Source: Prevotella sp. (GTDB taxonomy: Bacteria; Bacteroidota; Bacteroidia; Bacteroidales; Bacteroidaceae). From it: a stretch of DNA of 16,182 nt. The stretch is from the NCBI GenBank assembly GCA_021204735.1, contig JAJPYV010000077.1:1-16182 (forward strand), written 5' to 3'. Below, in pieces: positions 341 to 15,258 of this stretch; position 1 is the first letter of the stretch; each line of letters begins with the position of its first letter. The notes beneath the pieces were generated by a model that worked only from the letters and a program-made list of their open reading frames with translations, did no database searches and was not told the origin of the DNA. Made by a program: the position numbers and the translations under genes.

Positions 341-556
341 GCGCGCCAAAGCCTATTTTTAAAAGTCTTTTTGCACAGTGTTGATAGCATTAATCGACAA
401 GTCCAATACAATGTTCTTTTTAATGTCTGCTCCGGATATATTTTCGAGATAGGCCGAGTAAGGAGTGACATTTATACGTGTTACGCTTTAGGCAAGCAAC
501 ATCCCTTCAAAGGGCTTGATTATATAGTACAGATTTTGCACGGGAAACAAGTATGA
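266..556 (+). CDS. Doubtful hypothetical ORF, 96 residues
   Basis: This open frame ends in a TGA that overlaps the ATG of ugd by ATGA, which can indicate translational coupling. Against it, there is no clear ribosome site before the ATG, no recognisable family or motif, and the frame runs through the long inverted repeat (309-340) and the TTTGCACAGTGTTGATA motif (370-386), both better explained as non-coding. I do not recognise the product and consider it more likely a chance frame or degraded remnant than a real gene. Confidence 0.15.
370..409 (+). promoter_or_regulatory. TTTGCACAGTGTTGATA promoter-like motif, copy 1
   Basis: The 17-bp motif at 370-386 ends in TTGATA (381-386), a 5/6 match to a -35 box. 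Exactly 17 bp later is CAATAC (404-409), a poor -10. Nearly the same motif recurs at 6626-6643 and 7986-8003, each time with a 17-bp spacer to a better -10. Here it would drive ugd with a leader of about 140 nt. The weak -10 makes this copy the least certain as a promoter, although the motif itself is clear. Confidence 0.45.
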
Positions 557-1755
557 AAATTGCAGTTGTTGGTATTGGTTATGTAGGGCTTTCTATAGCT
601 GTTCTTTTAGCACAGCACAATGATGTTCTTGCGATTGATGTTATGCAAGAACGCGTAGATATGGTTAATGCTCAAAAGTCCCCAATCGTTGATGTAGAGA
701 TAGAGGATTATCTTGCATCAGGCAAATTAAGTCTTAAAGCATCTACGGATGGGAAAGCATTCTATTCCCAAGCGGACTATATAATTATTGCCACACCTAC
801 TAATTACGATCCTGAGACTAATTTTTTCAATACTTCATCAGTAGAGAGTGTGATAAAAGATGCAATTGCAGCAGATACAAACGCTTATATTGTTATCAAA
901 TCAACTGTTCCAGTTGGTTATACAGTATCGTTAAGAAAGAAATTTTTGTATGAGAAAATAATGTTTTCTCCTGAGTTTCTTCGCGAAGGCAAAGCTCTGT
1001 ATGATAATCTATACCCCTCAAGAATAGTGGTTGGGGCCAATCTCAGGAATCCAGCACTGATGGAGTATGCTGCGGAATTTGCATCCCTGCTGCAGGAAGG
1101 CGCTATAAAGAATGATGTCCCTACTCTATTGATAAATGCCACTGAGGCTGAGGCCATAAAACTGTTCGCCAATACATATCTAGCTTTAAGGGTGTCTTAT
1201 TTTAATGAACTTGATACTTATGCTGAGATGAGGGAACTCGATACAAAGGCAATAATAGACGGAGTATGCCTGGATCCTAGAATTGGTTCAGGATATAACA
1301 ATCCCTCATTCGGGTATGGCGGATATTGCCTGCCAAAGGATACTAAGCAGCTTTTAGCAAATTTTGCCAATGTTCCGGAAAATCTTATACAGGCTATAGT
1401 CGATTCCAACAGAACGAGAAAGGATTTTATCACCAGAAGAATCTTGGAAAAAGCCGGATATCCAGAGAACAGGGACATTACTATAGGCATATACAGACTT
1501 ACCATGAAAACAAATTCGGATAATTTCAGGCAAAGCGCAATCCAGGGCATTATGAAGAGACTTGAGTATTTTGGTGCCACTATTCTCATATATGAGCCTG
1601 CGGCAAAGACAGATGAGCACTATGGTCATAGGATAACCAAGGATCTTGATGAATTCAAGAAATGCAGCACAATTATAGCAGCAAACCGCTTTTCAGAAGA
1701 TCTTGTGGACGTTAGGGATATAGTATACACAAGAGACTTGTTTGGAAGAGACTAA
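553..1755 (+). CDS. ugd: UDP-glucose 6-dehydrogenase
   Basis: It oxidises UDP-glucose to UDP-glucuronate in two NAD+-dependent steps in the cytoplasm, supplying an acidic sugar donor for capsule synthesis. The 400-residue length is typical of the short bacterial form. Visible motifs are the N-terminal NAD-binding GIGYVG (7-12), STVPVG (117-122), SPEFLREG (139-146), the lysine and asparagine in [13 protein letters not shown] (K203, N207), and the catalytic cysteine C259 in [15 protein letters not shown] (254-268). The order is NAD-binding domain, central dimerisation helix, then C-terminal UDP-binding domain. The ATG at 553 starts directly at the Rossmann strand [12 protein letters not shown]; the upstream ribosome site is weak (GGGAAA). 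It is followed after 133 bp by a glycosyltransferase and probably heads that operon. UDP-mannuronate-type dehydrogenases are related, but this set of motifs fits UDP-glucose dehydrogenase best. Confidence 0.95.
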
Positions 1756-1888: not shown

Positions 1889-4813
1889 ATGGCGTATGAA
1901 GTTTCATTACAAGAATTTGTGTTTCCTTCAGATGAAATATGTAATGAAAAAGAGATGTATTTTAAAGGGAATGGATTCTGCATAGATAATAGCAGGGTTT
2001 TTTTTAATGATGAGGGGACACTTATTTCATCAACATATTTTAACAGCTTTTCTCTTAATAAATGGAAACAGTATACTGGATTGACAAAGTTCGGTATTAC
2101 ATTCCGTTTAAGGGGGGATTTTAATGTTAAATTGTGCTCCATGGAGCTTTTAAAAGGCAAGGCATCAATTACTGTATTTCATGAACAGGATATAAGTTGG
2201 CCCGAAGAAAGCATTCTGAGGCTGGAGTTCAATTTTGATGTCAGAGGCATAGTCTATTGTGAACTACATGCAAAGAGTGAAGGGGCAGAACTGTATAAAG
2301 GAATATATTGGGCTTTAGTAGGCGACAGTAGAGTGCTCAATCCTGTTAATATTGCTGTTGGGATCTGTACATTCAATCGAGAGGATTTTATTATTCCAAT
2401 CCTTAAGCGTTTTGATTCAGTACTGAGAAATCCTGCCAGTGTTTTATATGGTAAAGTAAAATTCTTTGTAGCGGACAATGGTCATACTTTGCCATTAGAT
2501 GAATTTAATAACGAAAACATCAAGGCAGTATACAATAAGAATTTTGGAGGGGTAAGTGGTTTTACCCGTTGCCTTATAGAAGCAAAGAATTATGGTTTGA
2601 ATTTCACTAATTTTATCTTCCTGGATGATGATGTCATTCTTGATACTTCAGCAATAGAAAGAGAAGTTACATTATTATCACTGCTGTTACCAAAGTATCA
2701 AGCTTGTGCAATAGTCGGAGCAATGCTTTCATTAGACAAGCGGTTTATTCAGATTGAATACGCAGCCAAATGGGAGGGAACGGATTTCAGATTCAATCTC
2801 AGAGATATAGACTTGCGAGATAATCTGAACATTATATTAAATGAAGAATCTGATAATGTTAACTACAATGCTTGGTGCTATTGCTGTATACCTTTTAATA
2901 TAGTGACTGATACCAACTTGCCCTTACCAGTGTTTTTTCATCTTGATGATGTTGAATATGGATTAAGAAATAAACTTCCAATAATAACATTGAATGGCAT
3001 TAATGTGTGGCATAAACAAAAGAGATATCTTTTAAATGCTACTAATGATTACTATGATGTCCGCAACAGATTGATTATGCTTTCAAGCATTGATATGGAT
3101 TCTGTAATACCAGCGGCTTACTCATTACTAACATACTATACTTTAGAAGTATTGAGATACCATTACTCAAGGGCTATTAATGCCTTTGATGGAATTCTTG
3201 ACTTCCTAAAAGGTTTTGAGTGGTTTAAGAACCATGACGCTCAGCAGAAAAATGCTGGCCTGTATAATAATGTGGCATGGCAGGTTGCTGATGATAATAT
3301 AAGATCAGCGGCTCATGTCCCTTATATTGAGCGCAGGGGTAGGAAATATAAGCTCAAGGCTGCTATAAAGCAGATTTTGCCTACAGTCAAGGGGAAGACT
3401 GTGACACTTAATGATAACAGTATAAATGATGCATCCAGTGCCAGATTGGTTACTGTGTATGTCCCTTCTGATGATCAGTATATTGTTTACAAGAAGAGAC
3501 GTCTATTGGCATTTAAGTGTTTCAGGAAACATTATGAGATTACACGCAAGCTTAAAAAATGTGCACCTTTAATTAGGGAGTACCATAATCGTTTGCCGGA
3601 AGTTCAATCCATAAATTTCTGGGATAAGTATCTTGGTCTTCAGAATGGAGAAAAAAAGAAGAAAGTCCTTATTGTTGCCTCAGATAATGATGCAACAAGC
3701 GGAGCGTTCAGAAGCATGTCGGTCCTTAGCCAGATTTTAAAGGACCAGTACGGATTAGATATCTGTATTTTGATTCCTAATTCCGGGGATGGGATTAATC
3801 TTGTTAAGGAAAGAGGGTTGCGCTATACAATAATTGACACAGTGGATTGGATTGTGCCAAAGGATTGCTCCAAGGAAGCTTATAAAAAGAAGCAAGAAGC
3901 ATTAAAAACCATTAATAAGAATGCATTGCCGAAGATAATGCGTTTCATGGAAGAGGAAAAGTTTGATTTAGTTCATCTCAACACCTCATATACTTATGTT
4001 GCGGCAATTGCCGCTTATAAACTTCATGTTCCAGTCGTATGGCATATTCGCGAGTTCCTTGAAGAGGATCAGTCTCGCAAGATGTTTGACAGAGAATATG
4101 GGTTGTCACTGATGCGCAAGGCTGATAGGGTTGTTGCCATATCAAAAGCTGTATATGCAAAGTACAGCAATTTGCTGCATACGGATAATCTGGTTCAGAT
4201 ATACAACGGGATTTCAACGGAGGATTTCCTCTGCAGTGAGAGAACCATTTTGAATAATGATAAGATTACCTTTATCGCAGTTGGCAATATTAATCCCTAC
4301 AAGGGACAAAGACTGATAGTTGATGCTCTGCACAAATTAAAGGAAAATGGCTTTAATGATTTTGAATTGCTCCTGGTTGGCAATGACAGATCTCAATATT
4401 GCGGGGAAATCAGAAGCGCTATTGTCGAATACAATATGTCGGAGCAAGTCAAAATATTAGGCAAACGGCAGGATGTGAACGAGTTGTTCAGACTTGCCGA
4501 CATATCTTTTGTGGGATCAAAATTTGAAGCATTTGGCAGGATTACCGTTGAATCCATGTTATCAGGATGTCTTGTAATAGGGGCTAACACGGCCGGTACG
4601 CAGGAGCTTATATGCGATGATTCAGATGGCCTGTTGTTTGAGTCTGATGACGTAGAATCCCTATATGAGAGATTAAGATACGCATTGGATAATAGAGAAC
4701 GGATGAAAGACCTGGCGGCAAATGGTCGCAACAAGGCACTTTATGAATTTTCTGCAGCAAAAAATGCAAAGGAAATACATGACTTATATACCAGGATATG
4801 GGAGAAGGCATGA
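1889..4813 (+). CDS. Two-domain glycosyltransferase: GlfT2-like GT2 fused to GT4
   Basis: This 974-residue cytoplasmic protein appears to carry two glycosyltransferase modules. Residues 1-150 resemble the beta-rich N-terminal part of galactofuranosyltransferase GlfT2. Residues about 153-400 are a GT-A domain with GICTFNRED (158-166), the metal-binding FLDDDV (244-249), and FFHLDDVEYGLR (349-360) followed by WH (374-375), all in the GlfT2 arrangement. Residues about 400-580 are a helical linker. Residues about 591-970 are a GT-B, GT4 domain with NPYKGQ (802-807) and the EX7E motif E880 to E888 in FEAFGRITVES. It probably adds two successive sugars, perhaps one furanose (inference). The start is ATG 1889 behind GAGGG. 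The stop overlaps the next gene by ATGA, so the two are translationally coupled. An 8-T run at 1998-2005 lies early in the frame. Sugar specificity cannot be read from the sequence. Confidence 0.88.
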   Translation: MAYEVSLQEFVFPSDEICNEKEMYFKGNGFCIDNSRVFFNDEGTLISSTYFNSFSLNKWKQYTGLTKFGITFRLRGDFNVKLCSMELLKGKASITVFHEQDISWPEESILRLEFNFDVRGIVYCELHAKSEGAELYKGIYWALVGDSRVLNPVNIAVGICTFNREDFIIPILKRFDSVLRNPASVLYGKVKFFVADNGHTLPLDEFNNENIKAVYNKNFGGVSGFTRCLIEAKNYGLNFTNFIFLDDDVILDTSAIEREVTLLSLLLPKYQACAIVGAMLSLDKRFIQIEYAAKWEGTDFRFNLRDIDLRDNLNIILNEESDNVNYNAWCYCCIPFNIVTDTNLPLPVFFHLDDVEYGLRNKLPIITLNGINVWHKQKRYLLNATNDYYDVRNRLIMLSSIDMDSVIPAAYSLLTYYTLEVLRYHYSRAINAFDGILDFLKGFEWFKNHDAQQKNAGLYNNVAWQVADDNIRSAAHVPYIERRGRKYKLKAAIKQILPTVKGKTVTLNDNSINDASSARLVTVYVPSDDQYIVYKKRRLLAFKCFRKHYEITRKLKKCAPLIREYHNRLPEVQSINFWDKYLGLQNGEKKKKVLIVASDNDATSGAFRSMSVLSQILKDQYGLDICILIPNSGDGINLVKERGLRYTIIDTVDWIVPKDCSKEAYKKKQEALKTINKNALPKIMRFMEEEKFDLVHLNTSYTYVAAIAAYKLHVPVVWHIREFLEEDQSRKMFDREYGLSLMRKADRVVAISKAVYAKYSNLLHTDNLVQIYNGISTEDFLCSERTILNNDKITFIAVGNINPYKGQRLIVDALHKLKENGFNDFELLLVGNDRSQYCGEIRSAIVEYNMSEQVKILGKRQDVNELFRLADISFVGSKFEAFGRITVESMLSGCLVIGANTAGTQELICDDSDGLLFESDDVESLYERLRYALDNRERMKDLAANGRNKALYEFSAAKNAKEIHDLYTRIWEKA

Positions 4814-6408
4814 TGAAGGTATGTGCAGTAGTCGTAACTTATAACCGCAAGGTAATGCTGGAACAGTGTATTAACGCATTATTGGGACAATCCTATAGTA
4901 AATACGACATTATCATTGTTGATAACGCAAGCACGGATGGGACTCAGGAGTTTGTTGAAAAGAAGTTTGGTCAGAGTGTCATTTATATTAATACCGGAGC
5001 AAACCTCGGCGGATCAGGCGGATTTTACTATGGAATGAGATATGCATATGAGCATAATTATGATTTGCTTTGGGTAATGGATGATGATGTTGTCCCGACC
5101 AGAACAGCTTTGTCAGAATTGATAAATCATAGTAAATATGTTAAAAGTTTCAGCTTTTTAGCAAGTGCGGTTTATGCTGCGGATAACACAGCATTAAATT
5201 CTCCCGAAATAAGCGGCTATAAAACGAACGGATATAAATTCTGGTATGAGAAACTGGAATATGGAATGGTTCGCCTATCTCATGCTACTTTTGTGTCTCT
5301 TTTGATTAAAGCTGACGCGATAAGGCAATGCGGTCTTCCCTGTAAAGATTTCTTTATTTGGGGGGATGATATTGAGTATACAAAGCGTATCGTTGGCAAC
5401 TATGCTCCTGCGTTTATTGTTGGAACCAGCAAAGTCTATCACATGAGGCAGAATGTATCTAATTTGAATATATGTACGGAGAAGAATCCTAACCGTATAA
5501 AGATGCTTTATTACTTAATAAGGAACACTATAGTTTATACTGACGCATATAGCGGTAAGAAAGCGGCAAAAAACAAGATCAAACAATACCGGAAGGATTG
5601 CATCAAAATAGCATTAAGCAATGTAAATTATAAGAATCTGAGGATATCAACGATATTACGGGCAATCAGGGGATTCAAAAAAGGAGAATTTAATCTTACC
5701 GCATTTAAGAATCGCTTCCAGGTTTATGGCCAGGAGAAAGCAGTTATTAATTTCATTGGCTTACCTGAAATTTCTAGTTATGCACCTGAATGGGGGTATA
5801 TGTATAATTGTAAACTTGATGAGTTTAATATTTTTACTTTATATGAGAATGTGCCCGCTTATATAAAGGAAATATCATCTAAGTGGAATTTAAGCAGTAG
5901 CACTAGAAATGACATAATTCAATATGGCCTTAAATTTAGAGGAGGGTCTAATCGTAATGAATATCTAGTAGCAGATATTTCAGGTTCTCTTAAAGATTAT
6001 GTTATCTTCTCTAATAATGATGACACTTTTGCTTTAAGTTATACGGATAGTTTAAAGCAAGAATTAAGTGATGGTTCATTAAAATATCTGGTTGATAATT
6101 ATGATTTGCAGATAACTAATTCCTGCAACCTTAAGAAGGGACAATTAGAGCAGGCTTTAACCACTTTCGCTGTGGATATTTCAGGGAAATGCAGAATAGA
6201 TCATATTATCTTCATTAAAAAGAACGTCCCTGGCGCAGATGAGAATCTTACTCAATTGTATGATTCTATGTTTAAAATAGTCACACATCTTATGCCGGAG
6301 TCTAATATTTTAGATCTGACTGACATCAGCCAAGATGGTATTGTTTATGATTTAGCAAAGGATAGGCTATATAAGCTTATAGATGAAATCAGTAGTAATA
6401 AGGTATAA
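4810..6408 (+). CDS. GT2 glycosyltransferase with unassigned C-terminal domain
   Basis: Residues about 1-250 (from ATG 4810) form a GT-A, GT2 domain of the rhamnosyl/galactofuranosyl type: VVVTYNR near the start, VDNASTDGT, metal-binding MDDDV (D91-D93), a distal FIWGDDIEYTKR (about 182-193) and a following histidine (VYHMRQN). After a basic helical linker comes a second module, about residues 305-532, beginning with the strand INFIG and containing YLVADISG. Its layout recalls the SGNH-like DUF6270 family, but I cannot see a convincing GSC or catalytic triad, so this is tentative. The frame is also open from ATG 4798. I prefer 4810 or 4813 because GGGAGAAGG (4800-4808) then acts as ribosome site and the ATG overlaps the previous TGA. 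The protein should act on the cytoplasmic face on the growing lipid-linked glycan. Confidence 0.87.
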   Translation: MMKVCAVVVTYNRKVMLEQCINALLGQSYSKYDIIIVDNASTDGTQEFVEKKFGQSVIYINTGANLGGSGGFYYGMRYAYEHNYDLLWVMDDDVVPTRTALSELINHSKYVKSFSFLASAVYAADNTALNSPEISGYKTNGYKFWYEKLEYGMVRLSHATFVSLLIKADAIRQCGLPCKDFFIWGDDIEYTKRIVGNYAPAFIVGTSKVYHMRQNVSNLNICTEKNPNRIKMLYYLIRNTIVYTDAYSGKKAAKNKIKQYRKDCIKIALSNVNYKNLRISTILRAIRGFKKGEFNLTAFKNRFQVYGQEKAVINFIGLPEISSYAPEWGYMYNCKLDEFNIFTLYENVPAYIKEISSKWNLSSSTRNDIIQYGLKFRGGSNRNEYLVADISGSLKDYVIFSNNDDTFALSYTDSLKQELSDGSLKYLVDNYDLQITNSCNLKKGQLEQALTTFAVDISGKCRIDHIIFIKKNVPGADENLTQLYDSMFKIVTHLMPESNILDLTDISQDGIVYDLAKDRLYKLIDEISSNKV

Positions 6409-6728: not shown

Positions 6729-7778
6729 GGGTAGGTTCGCTAGACAAGAATTCGTAAATGCATGTGGATATTTTCAAAACATGACTGAATCCCTAGTTTA
6801 TATAAACACATCTCAAGAGGTACAACCTGGCCAGCAGCATTCAGGGCTTTGTAATGTTAATGAAGCTGATTTGATTAATGCACATAATCCTAATGTCTGT
6901 CCAAACTGCGGAAGCTTAAGATTTGTAAGGTTTGGGAAAACCAGGAACGGTGTAAACAGATTTCTATGCAAAGATTGCGGCAAGACCTTTACGCCGGTAA
7001 CAGGTACAATTTTTGAAAACCACAAGATTTCTATAAGAGAATGGATGGATTTTTGTCGCAGCATGTTCAGCATGTTCAGCAACATCAATACATGTACTGA
7101 ATTCCTGAACAGCAGGAATGCGATAACAACATCCCGATACTGGCTTGAAAAACTGTTCCTTATTCTGGATGGCATACAAGATGACATTGTGTTATCTGGT
7201 ACTGTTCAGCTGGATGAATTTTTTATATCAGAAAATGAATTCAAGCCAATATACGCCGATGCGGAAGTTGGCAGTTCAGTTCGCAAAAAGAAGCAAGGGA
7301 AATTACGGCATCAATATTGTATTGTAATTGCTGCAGATGGGACAAACATATTGCTGTTTTATGATAGGATTGATGATTCAATCACACAAACAGCATTCAA
7401 TACATTCTGCAGTCATATTGCTCCGGGAACTCTTCTAATTTACAATGGAGAGGCATATCATTCTCAACTTGTCCAATCTTTGTCAGAAAATGGTGGCTTA
7501 TATGTTCCGAATGGGAATAGTACATTGGATGTGAATGGGGATTCCCTAATACAGGAGTTTAATAGCATCCGCTCAATGTTGATTCAACTGATTCAAAATC
7601 AATCAAGATTTAAACAGGAGGAGATTCAAGGATATTTGAACATGTATGCCTTTGTTATAAATCCGCCTTCAGAATGTGAGGAAAAGATAGATATAATCCT
7701 GAACCGAGCTTTTTTAAATCACATGGAACTCCGATACAGGGATTTCTATAAGAAAATATAGCATTTGTTAACCTACAC
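6729..7778 (+). mobile_element. IS1595-like insertion element, about 1.05 kb
   Basis: The transposase gene is flanked by a short imperfect inverted repeat: GGGTAGGTTCGC at 6729-6740 and, read on the other strand, GTGTAGGTTAAC from 7778 back to 7767 (9 of 12 match). The span is normal for this family. No 8-bp target duplication is seen: the flanks are CACTATTA on the left and AATATAGA on the right. Either the ends are misplaced, or the copy is old or rearranged. The element separates the ugd-led genes from the DUF4422 gene group. Confidence 0.5.
6781..7761 (+). CDS. IS1595-family transposase, probably inactive
   Basis: This 326-residue protein has the IS1595 layout. An N-terminal zinc ribbon (C40, C43, C63, C66 in CPNCGS and FLCKDCGKTF) is followed by a helix-turn-helix-like region (about 85-130) and a DDE/DDN-type nuclease fold. 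The first catalytic aspartate is D145 in TVQLDEFFI. The third-position asparagine is likely N261 in EFNSIRSM, followed by the family's YLNMYAF. Where the second aspartate is expected (usually DGH-like), the sequence reads LLIYNGEAYHSQ, so N222 replaces it. The frame is intact, but the substitution and weak helix-turn-helix suggest loss of activity. No ribosome site is evident before ATG 6781. The family assignment is firm; loss of activity is inferred. Confidence 0.82.
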   Translation: MTESLVYINTSQEVQPGQQHSGLCNVNEADLINAHNPNVCPNCGSLRFVRFGKTRNGVNRFLCKDCGKTFTPVTGTIFENHKISIREWMDFCRSMFSMFSNINTCTEFLNSRNAITTSRYWLEKLFLILDGIQDDIVLSGTVQLDEFFISENEFKPIYADAEVGSSVRKKKQGKLRHQYCIVIAADGTNILLFYDRIDDSITQTAFNTFCSHIAPGTLLIYNGEAYHSQLVQSLSENGGLYVPNGNSTLDVNGDSLIQEFNSIRSMLIQLIQNQSRFKQEEIQGYLNMYAFVINPPSECEEKIDIILNRAFLNHMELRYRDFYKKI

Positions 7779-8026: not shown

Positions 8027-8331
8027 GGAGTATAGAATGATTTTTAATTTTGGTGGGTGCAGTGTCATGGCCATGTAATATGACGTTAAAGCGGATTTAA
8101 TATGATTTTTTTTGCTTTAATTTTCAACACTATGCAAAATTTATGTGTTTTTAAAGAGTTGTTTACTATGGTTTTTAGGAGTAAAAAATTAGTGGCTTTT
8201 TATATGATTTACTGTGCGCGGTAATAGAGATGGGGGCAATGTGCATAGGCGCAGGCTTTTGTTATGTGGCGTAAATGATAGCAAAGTTGTAGGTTTTGCT
8301 GGTATAAGAAGAGTTGTTTAAAGAGGGGAAT
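8027..8331 (+). other. Long 5' leader with two very short ORFs
   Basis: About 300 nt lie between promoter copy 3 and the next gene. No known riboswitch is recognised. Two tiny frames occur: ATG 8168 to TAA 8224 (18 residues) and ATG 8230 to TAA 8274 (14 residues). Neither has a strong ribosome site, so coding status is doubtful. Copy 4 of the promoter-like motif lies here on the other strand. Confidence 0.35.
8099..8140 (-). promoter_or_regulatory. ATTTTGCATAGTGTTGAAA promoter-like motif, copy 4, minus strand
   Basis: Read on the minus strand from 8140, the motif ends in TTGAAA (8127-8122) and, after a 17-bp spacer, CATATT (8104-8099), a 4/6 match to a -10. It converges on copy 3. Transcription would run toward 7829 with no credible gene on that strand. 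It could make an antisense or short RNA, or simply be a second operator. Confidence 0.35.
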
Positions 8332-10086
8332 ATGAGCTATACTTTAAAGTTGCTTATTTGTTATCATAAGAAGGATGTCCTGCTAAAGGATGATGTTTTT
8401 ACACCTATTCATGTTGGAAGAAGCCTTGCAAGGGAGAGATTGGGGGAAGATAATCCAGATTACATGTGGCTGGAAGAAAACATGATAGGCGATGATACCG
8501 GGGATAATATATCAGCAAAGAACTCATCTTACAATGAATTAACAGCGGTTTATTGGGCGTGGAAAAATTATGATAAGCTTGGAAACCCGGACTATATAGG
8601 GTTAATGCACTATCGCCGTCATTTTATATTCAGACCTTCTTATGATGTTGTCGAGAATGTTAGCGGAATAGACGAAAATTATTACAGCCGTATCAACTAT
8701 AATGAAGATACTCTCGCTCACTTGTTTGATGACTGCGATTATGTTGCGCATATAGGGCATGTCGATGAGGTATTCAAGCACTACAGCGAGAATCATCATA
8801 TAGAGGATCTTGAACTGGCAATATCTATTTTGAAAAATAAGTATCCTGAGTACACCGAGACTGCGGATGCATATCTCAAGATGTCTTATGTGAATCTCTG
8901 CAACATGTTCATTATGCCCCGTAAGATGTACTTTGAATACTGCTCCTGGCTTTTTGACATCCTGGCTGAGTTCGAAAGTCAAGTTGATTTGACAGACAAG
9001 AGGCTGTTTATATCAGAGCGTCTTACAGGTATTTTCATAGAGTATCAAAAGCGCAAGGGCTTTAAGCAGAAGGCTCTTTCGGCTACATTTATTCAAAGTG
9101 AGACTCATGTTCCTATTGTAATGCCTTACCACTCAGACGTTTTTCGAACAGCTGTTACTATGTTGTCTGTAATGAAGCGAGCTGACAAGACTACATATGC
9201 AGACTTTTATTTACTTCACAAAGGGGATGCCAAGCGCAGAGAACTGGAGGAGTTTATCAGCCGATATCCCGGAAATACAATCCAGTTTGTTAATGTAAAA
9301 GAAAAGCTCGGTTCTAGTGTAATTTCAGAATTTAAGTTCCCTGAACATTATGCCTTGGTTGCCGCAGAAGTTTTGGACAATATCAAAAAATTCATATATA
9401 TGGATGAAAAAGCCTTTATCTTCGGTGATATAGGCAAGTTCTATCAGGCATGCAATAATGATGAGTATGCTGTTCTAGGTCTTCCTGCAGATGGCATTAC
9501 TACAGGGAAAGAGATAGAGGGGAACGTTTTTTGCCTTAATGGGGCACGTCTTCGCAGACTTCGCTTCATGGATGATGTGAGAGACAATTGTGCAGGCATG
9601 ACCTCATCAGAAGTTTTTATGAAATATGCTGCAGGGCAGGTGAATACTTTCCCATGGTGGCTCTATAACGTCACAGATATGGAAAAAGACGGCAGAATAT
9701 ACTATGACAAACCGCGCGGAGATCAGAGATGTGGAGTGTGGGACCATTGTTTGCTGTATTATAAAGATGAAATGGAGCCTTGGAAAAACATACAAGGGCT
9801 GTATTCCGTGTACTGGTGGAACATAGCTTCAGAACTCCCGTCCTGTATTCCATTCCTGCACGTGAGTGATGATGCATATGATTTGTTCTATTCACAGTCA
9901 TATGATCTGTGTTTGAAGAATGCAGGCAGAAAAGCCGCTTCTTTTCCAGTAGGTGTTCCATCTCCTGCCACAGCTAGCAATCCTAATAAGAAACAAGGTG
10001 TTTTAAAACGTGGGATGAAATATTATAAGGCTCACGGGTTCAGACAAACAGTAAAAAAAGTCTGGGGAAAGATTACGAGGAAATGA
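8332..10086 (+). CDS. DUF4422 plus GT8-like two-domain glycosyltransferase
   Basis: Residues 1-250 are a DUF4422 domain, a family often found in capsule loci and thought to be glycosyltransferase-like. Seen here are CYHKK (10-14), NSSYNELTAVYWAWKN (64-79), GLMHYRRHF (90-98) and NMFIMPRKMYFEYC (191-204). Residues about 258-510 resemble GT8, with VPIVMPYHSD at the start, KFIYMDEKAFIFGDI (353-367) and YKDEMEPWKN (477-486). In GT8 enzymes the middle motif normally contains DxD; here it is DEK, so metal binding may be lost. The C-terminus (about 550-584) is basic and may contact the membrane. The frame is open from TTG 8314, but ATG 8332 is chosen because AAGAGGGG (8321-8328 approximately) is a good ribosome site for it. 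The next gene starts 3 bp after the stop, so they form an operon. Confidence 0.85.
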   Translation: MSYTLKLLICYHKKDVLLKDDVFTPIHVGRSLARERLGEDNPDYMWLEENMIGDDTGDNISAKNSSYNELTAVYWAWKNYDKLGNPDYIGLMHYRRHFIFRPSYDVVENVSGIDENYYSRINYNEDTLAHLFDDCDYVAHIGHVDEVFKHYSENHHIEDLELAISILKNKYPEYTETADAYLKMSYVNLCNMFIMPRKMYFEYCSWLFDILAEFESQVDLTDKRLFISERLTGIFIEYQKRKGFKQKALSATFIQSETHVPIVMPYHSDVFRTAVTMLSVMKRADKTTYADFYLLHKGDAKRRELEEFISRYPGNTIQFVNVKEKLGSSVISEFKFPEHYALVAAEVLDNIKKFIYMDEKAFIFGDIGKFYQACNNDEYAVLGLPADGITTGKEIEGNVFCLNGARLRRLRFMDDVRDNCAGMTSSEVFMKYAAGQVNTFPWWLYNVTDMEKDGRIYYDKPRGDQRCGVWDHCLLYYKDEMEPWKNIQGLYSVYWWNIASELPSCIPFLHVSDDAYDLFYSQSYDLCLKNAGRKAASFPVGVPSPATASNPNKKQGVLKRGMKYYKAHGFRQTVKKVWGKITRK

Positions 10087-10089
10087 GAT

Positions 10090-12051
10090 ATGAGCAAAAT
10101 GCCTTCTGTTTCAATACTGGTCCCGGTTTATAATGTTGCTGAATATCTCAGGCAGTGCCTGGACAGTCTGATTGGCCAGACGTTAAAGGATATTGAAATC
10201 ATCTGTGTGGATGACGGAAGCACGGACACATCATCCCAAATTTTGCAGGAATATGCAAAGATGGACAGCCGTGTCATTATAGTAAACAAGTCTAACGGAG
10301 GACTTCCTTCTGCACGCAATGCAGGTCTTAATGTGGCGAGGGGCAAGTTTGTTGGATTTGTTGACGGGGATGATTATGTGGATGCAGACATGTACAGCCG
10401 GATGTATAAAGCCGCATGTATTAACAAGGCAGATATTGTTGTCTGCGGCGCGCATCTGTTCCCGGACGAAGGATCTGCTCCTGCATGGCTCAAGGACACG
10501 TTAACTACACGTGATAAAGTATATAGCAATGGAGATGGGGCCGAGGCATTATTCAATGAGAAATCTGCAAAGCCGTTCCTTTGGAGAGATCTTATTAGCA
10601 AGTCCCTTATTGATAAATATAAATTCAGGCTGGATGAAAGCGTTATTGTAGGTGAAGACCAGGCGTTTCAGTTCAAGATTTTTCCTGTTGCTCGAAATGT
10701 GACATTTATCCCGGACAAGCTTTATTATTACAGATATAGCCGGCCGTCTTCTTTAATGAATGAGCCTCAATATCATGACTATGGTCTACGCTTAAAAAAA
10801 CATATCCATATGATTGAAAGCATCCTGTCAAGCTGGAAGACTCTTGCTGTGGATTCCAGCATAACTGTTCGTTTGTTTGACTGGTGTGTCAATTTTATAT
10901 ATTGGGATCTTATCCGTGTCAACGCAACGGACAGAATTGAAATTGCAAAAGAGCTATGCAAGCTTCTGGTGAATGCCGGATACTACAATTATATTAAGGA
11001 TTACTCATGGGATACAAGAAATCATTTTGAATATATATATTCCTTGAGTACTCAGACAGCGGAGCAGCCAGTTGTTACAGTTGTCGCTGCTTTTGAAAAA
11101 TGCAGCGATTATATGGGTGACTTTATTGATTCGATTCTTGCTCAAAGCGAGAAGCGCATTGAAATTCTGTTGTATGAAAACAGCAGCGGAGACAAAACAA
11201 AGGGAATTATATTTGAGAGACTTGCAATGGATTCCCGTATCTGTTTAAGGCTCGGGGACTGGCAGCCTATAAGTGAAAAGTATAACGATGCTATACTTAC
11301 GGCCAAGGGTAAATATATTTGTTTTTTAAGCCCGTATGATTATATTCAGGATGCAAACTGGCTGAATAATGCTGTCGATGCATTTAGAGATGACATTGTT
11401 GATCTGGTTGGATACAGCGAGGGGCTGGCCGGCATAAAGTATATTAAATTTTGCCAGAATGCTAATTACAGGCAATTTCTTTACCGTGTTGACAAAATCC
11501 GCTCTGATGGTATACTGTTCAAAGACTATTCTCTCCTTATTGGCAGTGTTTTTTTCACTCAATACTGTCTTGTCAGCAATTACTGTTGTTTTATACCTAA
11601 ATTTATGTTCCATGGCAAAACACTAAGAAGAAACAGTATATATGCCAGCGAAGCAAAACTGGTATTGAGAGCGTTTGTGTGGCTGCTTCAAGCTGCCATA
11701 GACAATAATTTGCCGCTTTTGGCAGAGAAAGTATCAGATTGTTTAAATTCAGAGAATTACATCCGTCTAATAACGGATGCAGCCTATGGTTTTAATATTG
11801 AGCCCTCATCGGCAGACAATCCCCAGGAAGATTTTCATACTGAGATATTAGCTTTACTCATTAAGGCAAATGAATTGGCTAAATTAAACGGGGAAGATAA
11901 AGCGGTGATTCGTTCCCTTTCCGTTTTTGTAGATAGACGCCATCAATTCCTTGAAGGGGTATATATGGGGGGGGGTATAAACCAAAAAGAAGACGACGGA
12001 TTATCCATAAGCAATAACATCAGAGAAGAATTCAGGTATTTGCACGATTGA
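10090..12051 (+). CDS. Tandem GT2 glycosyltransferase
   Basis: Residues about 5-250 are a complete GT2 domain: SILVPVYNVAEYL (8-20), VDDGSTD (40-46), NGGLPSARNAGL (69-80), metal-binding VDGDD (91-95), and IVGEDQAF (186-193) at the acceptor side. Residues about 327-450 repeat the GT2 fold (VVTVVAAFEKCSDY, ENSSGDKTKG, GKYICFLSPYDY), but the DxD position reads SPYDY, so this half is probably non-catalytic. Residues about 450-625 are a helical region whose end is also found, decayed, just downstream. The ATG at 10090 follows GAGG at 10078-10081. The gene is 3 bp behind the DUF4422 gene. A run of nine G (11967-11975) near the 3' end could shift the last 28 codons. Substrates are unknown. Confidence 0.9.
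   Translation: MSKMPSVSILVPVYNVAEYLRQCLDSLIGQTLKDIEIICVDDGSTDTSSQILQEYAKMDSRVIIVNKSNGGLPSARNAGLNVARGKFVGFVDGDDYVDADMYSRMYKAACINKADIVVCGAHLFPDEGSAPAWLKDTLTTRDKVYSNGDGAEALFNEKSAKPFLWRDLISKSLIDKYKFRLDESVIVGEDQAFQFKIFPVARNVTFIPDKLYYYRYSRPSSLMNEPQYHDYGLRLKKHIHMIESILSSWKTLAVDSSITVRLFDWCVNFIYWDLIRVNATDRIEIAKELCKLLVNAGYYNYIKDYSWDTRNHFEYIYSLSTQTAEQPVVTVVAAFEKCSDYMGDFIDSILAQSEKRIEILLYENSSGDKTKGIIFERLAMDSRICLRLGDWQPISEKYNDAILTAKGKYICFLSPYDYIQDANWLNNAVDAFRDDIVDLVGYSEGLAGIKYIKFCQNANYRQFLYRVDKIRSDGILFKDYSLLIGSVFFTQYCLVSNYCCFIPKFMFHGKTLRRNSIYASEAKLVLRAFVWLLQAAIDNNLPLLAEKVSDCLNSENYIRLITDAAYGFNIEPSSADNPQEDFHTEILALLIKANELAKLNGEDKAVIRSLSVFVDRRHQFLEGVYMGGGINQKEDDGLSISNNIREEFRYLHD
11967..11975 (+). repeat. Homopolymeric G9 tract within the GT2 gene
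   Basis: Nine consecutive G lie in codons 626-629. Loss of one G gives an immediate stop (GTA TAA). Gain of one gives a basic tail (KPKRRRR-like) ending at a TAA after about 16 codons. Tracts of this kind are known slippage sites in surface-glycan genes, but this one affects only the C-terminal tail. Confidence 0.55.
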
Positions 12052-12330: not shown

Positions 12331-12465
12331 TTTGTGAGGGATACAATTGAATAATCCGGATTAAACTTTTTGAGAATATATTTTAATGGAGGTTTTTGCG
12401 TATCAATATTAACCCATTGTTTATGTTTTCGAGGAGTAATCTAATTTAAATTTAAGGAGGTTGTT
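12331..12465 (+). promoter_or_regulatory. Upstream region of the fusion gene: palindrome and strong ribosome site
   Basis: TAATCCGGATTA (12353-12364) is a perfect 12-bp palindrome and a possible operator. No convincing -35/-10 pair is seen. A TTG at 12396 behind TGGAGG opens a 17-codon frame that stops at 12447-12449, a doubtful leader peptide. AAGGAGG at 12454-12460, five bases before the TTG at 12466, is a near-perfect ribosome site and fixes the start of the next gene. Confidence 0.45.
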
Positions 12466-15258
12466 TTGCCCGATAAGTTTAGTTGGGATTCTCATTACGA
12501 TGTAGGCATATATGGCTGGTGGGGGCATGAAAACTTTGGCGGTGCTTTGACATATTTTGCACTCAGCAAGGTGCTTTCCAGCAAAGGGTTTTCTGTCCTT
12601 ATGATTCAGGAGGCTAACGGACTTCCTGGGAGATATTCTATTCCTGATAATACTATTGCCATGTCATTTGCGCATAATAATTTAGTGTGCTCTCCCCAGG
12701 TTAACGCTAAAGATTTGGCTCGTTTTAATGACATATGCGACAGATTTATCATTGGCGGGGATCAAGTTTGGAATTATTACATTCCATTTGTTAAAGAGGA
12801 TTGTTTTCTTAATTTTGTAGATTATAATAAAACAAAAATATCTTATTCTTCTTCCTTGGGCCCCCAAAATTATAATCCACCTAAAGCATTTACTGACAGA
12901 GTCAAGCCACTTATTAAGCGTTTTGATTCCGTGTCTGTACGTGAAGACTATGCTGTTGGTATAGCAAAAAGGCTTTTTGATATCAATGCAACACAGGTTC
13001 TTGATGCTATTTTCTTAACAGACAAACAGGATTTTGTTGAAGCAGCTGTTGACTCAACATATGTATTCCCTAAAAAATTCCTGTTTGCTTTTATTTTGAA
13101 TCCAACAAAAGAGAAGAGATTCCAGGTTGAAACTATTGCCAATAAGCTTGGTCTAGATATTGTCTGCTGTCCTGATGCAGCATTTGCATATCACAAGACA
13201 TTTAATGAAATTTTCTTGGGATTGAAGATTATTTTCCCATTGAGTGTCAGCAATCTCATTAAGGCATATGAGAAGGCATCATATATTGTAACAGATTCAT
13301 ATCATGGAACTTGTTTGAGTTATGTTTTTCATAAACACTTCTCTGTATATTACAATGAAAAGCGAGGTATGGATAGATTTATCTCATTGATGAATATCTT
13401 GAAGCTCGAATCAAGAAGAATTTATGAGAATTATACAGAACAAGAAATTTTTGGCAACAATAATGTAAATTTTAATGTAGATTGGACCGAAGCTGATCTT
13501 GAGATTCAACGGGGAAGGGATTTTTCTATTAGTTGGTTACTGGGGGCATTAACCAAAAGAAATATTGAGCCAATCCGAATTCCAAGTAAATATAATGTTT
13601 TTAGTGATTTGGCACTTGATCCTAATGTCCAGAATAATCGTGATTTCAAAAATGTACGGCTTGTCTGTACATTATTACGGGATTACGGGGTTAAGCATGT
13701 AGTGTTATCCCCAGGATGTCGTGCTATACCCTTGATTAGGATGTTTGAAAACAATACAGAATCGTTCATCCTTCACCGGGTTACAGATGAGAGAAGTGCT
13801 GCCTATTACGCTATGGGGCTTGCTACACAACTGCAGAAACCTGTTGCTTGTGTTTGTACCAGCGGAACAGCTGCCAGCAATTATCTTCCTGCGGTTACTG
13901 AGGCATATTATACAGGTATCCCTTTGATAGTAATTACTGGCGACAGATATAGTGTATTCTTGAATCAGAATGAAGATCAGACCATCCCTCAAAAGCATAT
14001 CTATTCTGATGTAGTCAAAATGGAGATTACACTTCCAGAAGCAAATGACTGGCTGAGTGATTATAAAGCGAGGAGAGACATATCAGCTTGCATTCTAGAG
14101 ACAACCCATAATGGGTTTGGCCCGGTTCATATCAACATCCCGGTTTATAATATTACGATTGGTGCTGATAGCGCCAAGATGAACTGGACTCTTTTACCAT
14201 TTATTAATCCGCATCTTCAAAGAGTGTCTTTTAATAATGGCACTTCCGATATGCTATTAAGGGTTAATGATCTGAAGAAATCCAAGAGAATACTTATTGT
14301 ATATGGTCAAAATGTTGCACCTAATGATAAGCAAAAACGTAACATAGAGTTATTTGCCTCCAAGTATAACTGTGTTATATTGACTGATCATATTTCTAAT
14401 CTCAATGTTAAGTACAGCATGGCACCATACAACATGTTGCAGTCTATTTCTCAAGCTAAATTCAATGAAAATTTGACACCAGATATTTTGATATCTGTTG
14501 GGGGGAGGAGACTGCTGAATGATCCACTTTTATTTAAGATTAGAGATGGTTCACACAGCGTAAGACATTGGTTAGTGAATCCAGATGGCCAAATAAGGGA
14601 CTTGTACTTCAGATTAACATCTGTATTTGAAACTACGCAGGATTATTTTTTTGAATTCTTTGCTGAAAACGCGGGTAATATCTCCAATAATGGTACATAT
14701 TACGAAGCCTGGAAAAATATTAATGACCAGTATGGGGTTCCTGCTATAAATAGATGGTGTTCTATTTATGTACAAAGCAAATTTTTGCCATCTATTCCGC
14801 GCAATTCCATTTTGCATTTGGCGGTTGGCCAAAGTTTCTACGATACCAGACAGTTCCGGATGGATGACTCAATAGAAGTGTACTGCAATATGGGAACAAA
14901 TGGTATTGACGGATGCACTTCAACATTTATGGGGCAATGCGCTGTAGTTAATGACAGGTTATGCTTCCTGCTTGTGGGCGATTTGTCATTCTTCTACGAC
15001 ATGAACAGTATTTGGAATAAGCCTTTAAAGAAAAATATCAGAATTCTTTTAGTAAACAATAATGGGACAGACTTGCTGAAAAGTCACAATCTTAAAGCAG
15101 TAACGTCTGTACATAATACTAAAGCGGAAGGTTGGGTTTGTACTGTTGGTTTTGAGTATATATCTGCCAATACTAAAGAAGAATTTGAGGAAAAGCTAAA
15201 ATATTTTGTCAGTGACAAGCCTGAAAATGCGGTTTTCTTTGAAGTTTTCTGCCCTTGA
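12466..15258 (+). CDS. Polysaccharide pyruvyltransferase fused to MenD-like ThDP enzyme
   Basis: This 930-residue protein has two parts. Residues about 10-330 are a polysaccharide pyruvyltransferase domain (CsaB/WcaK type): YGWWGHENFGGALTYFAL (16-33), IGGDQVWN (96-103), SSSLGP (128-133), SVRED (157-161) and TDSYHG (276-281). Residues about 385-930 match MenD throughout: SPGCRAIPL (415-423), DERSAAYYAMG (441-451) with the ThDP-activating glutamate E442, CTSGTAASNYLPAVTEA (464-480), DQTIPQ (504-509), and the cofactor-binding GIDG (813-816) and GDLSFFYDMNS (838-848) to NNNG (864-867). The first half is expected to move pyruvate from PEP onto a sugar. The second should use ThDP with a 2-oxoacid donor, but its acceptor is unknown. 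MenD has Arg-Gly before SGIDG; here it is Met809-Gly, so the substrate probably differs. No other menaquinone gene is nearby. The TTG start has an AAGGAGG site. Confidence 0.88.
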   Translation: MPDKFSWDSHYDVGIYGWWGHENFGGALTYFALSKVLSSKGFSVLMIQEANGLPGRYSIPDNTIAMSFAHNNLVCSPQVNAKDLARFNDICDRFIIGGDQVWNYYIPFVKEDCFLNFVDYNKTKISYSSSLGPQNYNPPKAFTDRVKPLIKRFDSVSVREDYAVGIAKRLFDINATQVLDAIFLTDKQDFVEAAVDSTYVFPKKFLFAFILNPTKEKRFQVETIANKLGLDIVCCPDAAFAYHKTFNEIFLGLKIIFPLSVSNLIKAYEKASYIVTDSYHGTCLSYVFHKHFSVYYNEKRGMDRFISLMNILKLESRRIYENYTEQEIFGNNNVNFNVDWTEADLEIQRGRDFSISWLLGALTKRNIEPIRIPSKYNVFSDLALDPNVQNNRDFKNVRLVCTLLRDYGVKHVVLSPGCRAIPLIRMFENNTESFILHRVTDERSAAYYAMGLATQLQKPVACVCTSGTAASNYLPAVTEAYYTGIPLIVITGDRYSVFLNQNEDQTIPQKHIYSDVVKMEITLPEANDWLSDYKARRDISACILETTHNGFGPVHINIPVYNITIGADSAKMNWTLLPFINPHLQRVSFNNGTSDMLLRVNDLKKSKRILIVYGQNVAPNDKQKRNIELFASKYNCVILTDHISNLNVKYSMAPYNMLQSISQAKFNENLTPDILISVGGRRLLNDPLLFKIRDGSHSVRHWLVNPDGQIRDLYFRLTSVFETTQDYFFEFFAENAGNISNNGTYYEAWKNINDQYGVPAINRWCSIYVQSKFLPSIPRNSILHLAVGQSFYDTRQFRMDDSIEVYCNMGTNGIDGCTSTFMGQCAVVNDRLCFLLVGDLSFFYDMNSIWNKPLKKNIRILLVNNNGTDLLKSHNLKAVTSVHNTKAEGWVCTVGFEYISANTKEEFEEKLKYFVSDKPENAVFFEVFCP

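Follow-up and report, generated by a model that had tools for sequence, protein, structure and literature searches.

The residues with which MenD holds its substrates have been described. In the L. monocytogenes enzyme, Ser408, Arg412, and Arg431 grip the far carboxylate of the 2-oxoglutarate-derived intermediate (PMC12312563). In the accessible part of PMC9835592, Ser33 and Arg34 belong to the decarboxylation pocket and Arg108 lies by the second intermediate, and according to the accessible parts of PMC12312563 and PMC9835592, Arg108 and Gln119 contact the second substrate. The branching of sugars by a ThDP enzyme is known from yersiniose, for which the accessible parts of PMC12247030 and PMC4753412 describe the transfer of an acetyl unit by YerE to a keto sugar, with reduction of the ketone as the next step; a term search of the accessible part of PMC12247030 found no mention of MenD. 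Among the pyruvyltransferases (PST), WcfO and CsaB pyruvylate lipid-linked sugars, as stated in the accessible part of PMC6801904. No report of a PST-MenD-type architecture was found in open-licence papers, and to this extent the original remark that no described example was known holds, although the architecture is common in sequence databases.

The window, i.e., the whole stretch of 16,182 nucleotides that was analyzed, is the entire contig C225 of its source MAG (2.74 Mb, 438 contigs, 81.32% complete, 3.72% contaminated). Its features are listed in Table 1. The fused gene is a single open frame with a TTG start and zero internal stops, encoding 930 aa. The N-terminal half matches PS_pyruv_trans (PF04230, residues 23-297, E 2.5e-19, 70.7 bits versus a Pfam cut-off of 25.3), and the C-terminal half matches TPP_enzyme_N of Pfam (residues 399-509, E 5.2e-21) and the menD model TIGR00173 of NCBIfam (residues 397-824, 260.6 bits versus a cut-off of 244.2). 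By comparison, the best acetolactate synthase model of NCBIfam reached 48.4 bits on the fused protein versus a cut-off of 538, and the best structural match of the ThDP half was the three-domain ThDP fold of MenD. The uninterrupted fusion of a pyruvyltransferase with a MenD-like enzyme behind a good ribosome site, as first proposed, is thus borne out by the domain matches over the cut-offs, by the AAGGAGG 5 nt ahead of the TTG, and by a frame that shows neither a stop nor a frameshift. The ThDP elements, which had been described as intact, are indeed conserved: across an alignment of 54 fusions, E442, D839-L840, N864/G867, and G813-G816 do not vary at all, and G838 and S841 hardly do. The PST motifs are kept as well, with D99-Q100, R159, D277-S278, and H280-G281 invariant and R159, H280, K290, and R300 unchanged through the same 54 fusions. 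The pairing of these last four residues with the PEP-binding R148, H308, and K328 of CsaB is a guess. No solved relative of the PST half of a close homologue was detectable by sequence.

Table 1. Features of the window and of the fused gene
Feature	Position	Strand	Basis
UDP-glucose 6-dehydrogenase-like enzyme (nucleotide sugar dehydrogenase)	553..1755	+	profile matches
Glycosyltransferase, GT4 match in C-terminal part	1889..4813	+	profile matches
GT2-family glycosyltransferase; best NCBIfam hit GlfT1 (galactofuranosyltransferase), under cut-off	4798..6408	+	profile matches
IS1595-transposase-like, IS1-type zinc ribbon, within glycan locus	6781..7761		profile match under model cut-off
DUF4422 protein	8314..10086	+	Pfam
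Glycosyltransferase, two GT2 stretches, immediately upstream of fusion	10090..12051	+	profile matches
Shine-Dalgarno AAGGAGG, 5 nt upstream of TTG start	12454..12460	+	read from sequence
Fused gene, PST domain and MenD-like ThDP domain, 930 aa	12466..15258	+	ORF and profile matches
PST domain, residues 23-297	12532..13356	+	Pfam match span
MenD-like ThDP domain, residues 385-930	13618..15255	+	profile and structural matches
E442, counterpart of catalytic Glu56 in L. monocytogenes MenD	13789..13791	+	alignment; role from PMC12312563
F791-M809, region of MenD Arg412/Arg431; Tyr and Met here	14836..14892	+	alignment; role from PMC12312563
Gene after fusion, truncated by contig end	15454..16182	+	no family at E<=0.001

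It had also been proposed that the neighbors are all sugar-assembly genes. The locus is a glycan locus, but the description does not extend to the transposase-like gene in its middle. Profile searches gave no reductase match for the truncated gene that follows the fusion, the product of which reads like a hexapeptide-repeat transferase.

A search with the ThDP half against 5.8 billion proteins passed 4939 of 8000 scored candidates. Both Pfam domains were found in 108 of the 120 best of these 4939 matches when the query is included (107 of the 119 others), and the PST domain is missing from the remaining 12, two of which the source names partial. A genome collection search yielded 21 loci, of which 15 carry a complete fusion, or 16 with the window, of 912-1093 aa; the fragments L062 and L065 as well as L063 were not used, and L129 was left out of the analysis. 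Chance or assembly error is excluded by the 107 of 119 two-domain homologues together with the 15 further complete fusions in separate genomes, and the homologues are therefore not always encoded as two separate genes. Identity to the window across these 15 fusions is 29-64% for the PST half and 41-72% for the ThDP half. The records are named Lachnospiraceae, Blautia, Butyrivibrio, Christensenella, Ruminiclostridium, Provencibacterium, and a Mollicutes MAG, among others, and one carrier, Pseudoruminococcus massiliensis (L053), is an isolate; among cultured bacteria, Diplocloster modestus has the unfused form. A full-length match occurs in 2 of 295 genomes of the nearest relative's order, and among the matches listed for the 151 genomes of the family of the window's MAG, the window alone is full length; the gene content of this family looks like that of Bacteroidales. 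The fusion gene is thus patchily distributed, and the contig of the window could be a stray or have been gained horizontally.

Several architectures related to the fusion were seen. P0025, a homologue of 1282 aa, is one chain of 4Fe-4S, FrhB, PST, and ThDP domains. L058, P0015, and P0058 are fusions of about 1090 aa with about 170 additional N-terminal residues; two of the three weakly match an ILEI domain, under the cut-off. On another contig of the window's MAG (C145), a 1149-aa frame that is open at the contig end (L037:622-4071) joins an epimerase-type domain, Fe-S, FrhB, and a PST half that is 37% identical to that of the window.

To place the ThDP half relative to MenD, a tree of 58 rows was built by a quick method from 16 fused and 24 unfused glycan-locus homologues and 18 canonical MenDs; eight near-identical canonical MenDs were left out, and the L. 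monocytogenes row sits on a very long branch. The 16 complete fusions form a single clade (SH-aLRT 100), and the glycan-locus homologues, fused and unfused, split from the canonical MenDs with an SH-aLRT of 97. Ser408, Arg412, and Arg431 are all retained in 26 of 26 canonical rows, and the window has Gly, Tyr, and Met in these columns. Among the fusions, Arg412 is lost in 15 of 16 and Arg431 is replaced by Met in 15 of 16, the exception being L064, which keeps both. The catalytic Glu and the Mg-binding Asp are kept in all 16, as are the bend Ile, Arg34, Arg108, and Gln119; the Lys301 column holds Asp in 13 of 16. Because the clamp is lost and the catalytic residues are kept, we infer from the alignment that the donor of the fusions would be a 2-oxoacid lacking the far carboxylate. 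The unfused homologues retain Arg412 in 24/24, Arg431 in 3/24, Arg34 in 6/24, and Arg108 in 12/24. The basal glycan-locus members (L038, L059, L060, L064, and L117) retain the Ser-Arg-Arg clamp. This points to an ancestor that used 2-oxoglutarate and cautions against assuming a single donor for all, since the donor may differ within the group. TIGR00173 accepts glycan-locus homologues too (290.7 bits for L038 and 268.4 for L053). These relatives are misnamed MenD by annotation models, so that menaquinone can be wrongly ascribed to carriers that lack it.

What is new is that the ThDP enzyme travels with a PST and with an oxidoreductase of varying family. The neighboring genes were clustered and scanned, the Pfam tally covering 107 of the 108 neighbors of fused loci (L064:3211-6942 was left out). 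An SDR or a zinc alcohol dehydrogenase lies close downstream in 14 of the 16 fused loci: the SDR is at +1 in seven (L045-L051; in L045 it is a short open frame), and the zinc enzyme is at +1 in six (L052-L055, L057, and L064) and at +2 in L056. No reductase is next to the fusion in the window, where the contig ends one gene on, or in L058. A reductase thus occupies +1 in 13/16 cases versus 1/91 other neighbor positions (Fisher 4e-13, with rows related by descent). Each of the 24 unfused loci has a same-strand PST gene no more than three genes away (24/24), a count partly selected because 13 of these loci include some picked after a nearby PST had been seen; the PST gene is adjacent in 21/24, with gaps of mostly -4 to 107 bases. 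In L075-L085, which were chosen without a PST seen nearby, it lies within two genes in 11/11. That the two genes are separate but adjacent in the unfused relatives shows that both functions belong to one pathway. A reductase-type gene is found within two genes in 18 of the 24 (SDR in 14, AKR in L081 and L082, and epimerase type in L075 and L085) and is missing from L036, L040, L059, L060, L061, and L079, of which L036 and L079 are near contig ends.

A later test set of unfused homologues from a Lachnospiraceae-order search gave the same picture in L117-L123, the loci visible on both sides, with an adjacent reductase in 7/7 (five SDR and two epimerase type) and a PST within three genes in 7/7, that of L117 via Pfam; like the 11/11 above, this count is free of selection for a nearby PST. 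Three loci stand outside this count: L126, which is cut by a contig end, and L127 (on a 3-kb contig) and L128 (with canonical-looking residues), in which both partners and MenB are missing. L124 and L125, two canonical loci, carry MenB and lack both partners. In NCBIfam, the models closest to the partner SDRs are those of general SDRs and of butanediol and acetoin reductases; the partner zinc enzymes are closest to NDMA-dependent, threonine, and BchC dehydrogenases, all far under the cut-offs. These matches fit carbonyl reduction without naming a substrate. No sugar 4,6-dehydratase is prominent among the 25 commonest neighbor families, which leaves the source of a sugar ketone unexplained. UDP-galactopyranose mutase is matched by 6 of 107 fused-locus neighbors, so galactofuranose glycans are a frequent setting.

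Two unfused genes deserve separate mention. The window's MAG carries a second MenD-like gene, unfused and of 607 aa, with a PST gene 38 bases downstream (L036, contig C25). At L118:7680-10495, the PST gene is directly upstream of the unfused MenD-like gene, in one-base contact and in the order of the fusion.

Taken together, these observations lean slightly toward a reading in which a MenD-derived carboligase works with a ketoreductase to add a carbon branch to a glycan, with the PST pyruvylating the same glycan. The first interpretation is thus borne out in part: a carbon-branched sugar, one of the products then proposed, reads well given the recurrence of a ketoreductase-like partner beside the ThDP enzyme. 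The protein would be a bifunctional glycan-modifying enzyme, and its C-terminal half, from the MenD line, would no longer produce the menaquinone intermediate. With ThDP as cofactor, this half would decarboxylate a 2-oxoacid that lacks a far carboxylate (pyruvate most likely) and link the acyl unit that is left to a sugar's carbonyl carbon. A separate oxidoreductase, usually encoded by the next gene, would reduce the new ketone or prepare the sugar ketone; that different oxidoreductase families fill one slot by the ThDP enzyme suggests that a carbonyl is reduced or prepared. The N-terminal half would transfer pyruvate from PEP onto the same glycan, probably while it is lipid linked, and by analogy with WcfO and CsaB the fused ThDP half may also act on a lipid-linked sugar. 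We infer the donor, the acceptor, carboligation over plain decarboxylation, and the order of the steps from these patterns, and the window's organism would presumably have its reductase beyond the contig. The PST half varies more than the ThDP half, as if a constant reaction were matched to different glycans. A broader proposal is tentative and, as a whole, rather unlikely: a MenD-derived carboligase family, widespread in the glycan loci of at least two bacterial groups, would branch lipid-linked glycan sugars, the reductase would convert the ketone to a hydroxyl, and a PST, fused or adjacent, would bridge the resulting diol with pyruvate.

Carboligation must be weighed against a simpler chemistry, conceivable but improbable, in which the ThDP half does no more than decarboxylate a 2-oxoacid, giving an aldehyde that the partner reduces to an alcohol, and the small product is attached to the glycan without any carbon branch on the sugar. 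The partner could equally be an aldehyde reductase, four oxidoreductase types occupy its slot, and phosphonopyruvate decarboxylase is a known ThDP analogue; moreover, cytidylyltransferase and LicD genes lie near L118 and a LicD gene near L120. However, no such transfer gene recurs among the 25 commonest neighbor families, and the retention of Arg108 and Gln119 in every fusion points to a second, carbon acceptor. The retention of Arg34 and Arg108 would also suit a relay, in which the product of the PST half is an enolpyruvyl ether or a pyruvyl group, to which the MenD half adds an acyl unit by 1,4-addition before the reductase reduces the ketone. Exactly these two halves are fused, with an FrhB-type flavoprotein domain in addition in P0025, MenD itself catalyzes the 1,4-addition to an unsaturated carboxylate, and MurA-type enolpyruvyl transfer from PEP exists, as stated in the accessible part of PMC6801904. 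In the same part of that source, however, the characterized PS_pyruv_trans members form ketals, and the unfused homologues, though they also adjoin a PST, often lack these arginines (Arg34 kept in 6/24 and Arg108 in 12/24), which makes the relay quite unlikely. There is similarly little to recommend the idea that the two enzymes are merely co-regulated, each modifying its own sugar within one polymer and sharing no substrate: the far greater divergence of the PST half looks as if it followed different glycans, but PST and ThDP genes are neighbors in the unfused relatives too.

It is very unlikely that the protein is a true menaquinone MenD, fused and misplaced, perhaps the sole MenD of the window's organism. 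Its menD score exceeds the cut-off, and in the window's MAG, with a strong menB on C140, no other protein does so (C25 scores 166.8 and C416, which reads as an acetolactate synthase, 46.4). The menB lies beside a menE-like gene with no menD adjoining (L035), an arrangement that differs from the sampled same-genus genomes. Against this, the 2-oxoglutarate clamp is lost, and MenB was found in none of the 17 related carrier genomes searched (14 with the fusion and three with the unfused homologues L059-L061; the genome of L064 is outside the set), although, as a positive control, the same search gave above-cut-off hits in 7 of 14 known genomes. The assembly of the MAG is incomplete (81%, with 3.7% contamination), and it likewise yielded no isochorismate synthase over the cut-off. 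Five same-genus genomes (L066, L067, L069, L070, and L073) and L068 carry their own MenD within a men gene group, as read from the sequence. In an assembly this incomplete, the lack of another MenD over the cut-off speaks neither for nor against a separate MenD gene in the missing part.

If the MenD-derived carboligase reading is correct, the family marks a surface glycan bearing a new acidic sugar, possibly carbon branched, and ThDP-dependent sugar branching would be extended past the YerE-like and alpha-ketoacid-dehydrogenase-type enzymes. Under the broader proposal, the family would represent a second, independent origin of such branching, and a new acidic surface structure would be hidden under the name MenD. 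The conserved trio of PST, ThDP enzyme, and interchangeable oxidoreductase is a concrete and testable biochemical prediction.

Compared with known systems, the ThDP half resembles MenD (SEPHCHC synthase, TIGR00173) in its three-domain ThDP fold, catalytic Glu, Mg/ThDP motifs, and over-cut-off score. It differs in that the fusions lack the 2-oxoglutarate clamp, mostly have Asp in the Lys301 column, lie in glycan loci, are joined to a PST, and occur, the window's MAG apart, in searched carrier genomes with no MenB. With YerE and YerE-like enzymes and their ketoreductases (yersiniose and paulomycose), as far as the accessible parts of the sources describe them, it shares the pairing of a ThDP enzyme with a reductase and the predicted acyl branch followed by reduction. 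Those enzymes, however, belong to another branch of the ThDP superfamily, whereas the enzyme here is of the MenD type, has a PST partner, and matches acetolactate synthase models weakly. The PS_pyruv_trans domain, over the Pfam cut-off, is that of the ketal-pyruvyltransferases CsaB, WcfO, and Pvg1p (PF04230), but in the window it is fused to a ThDP enzyme. The FrhB-PST fusions of polysaccharide loci likewise join a PST to a redox partner (L037, and P0025 with FrhB in front), with an Fe-S flavoprotein in place of the ThDP enzyme.
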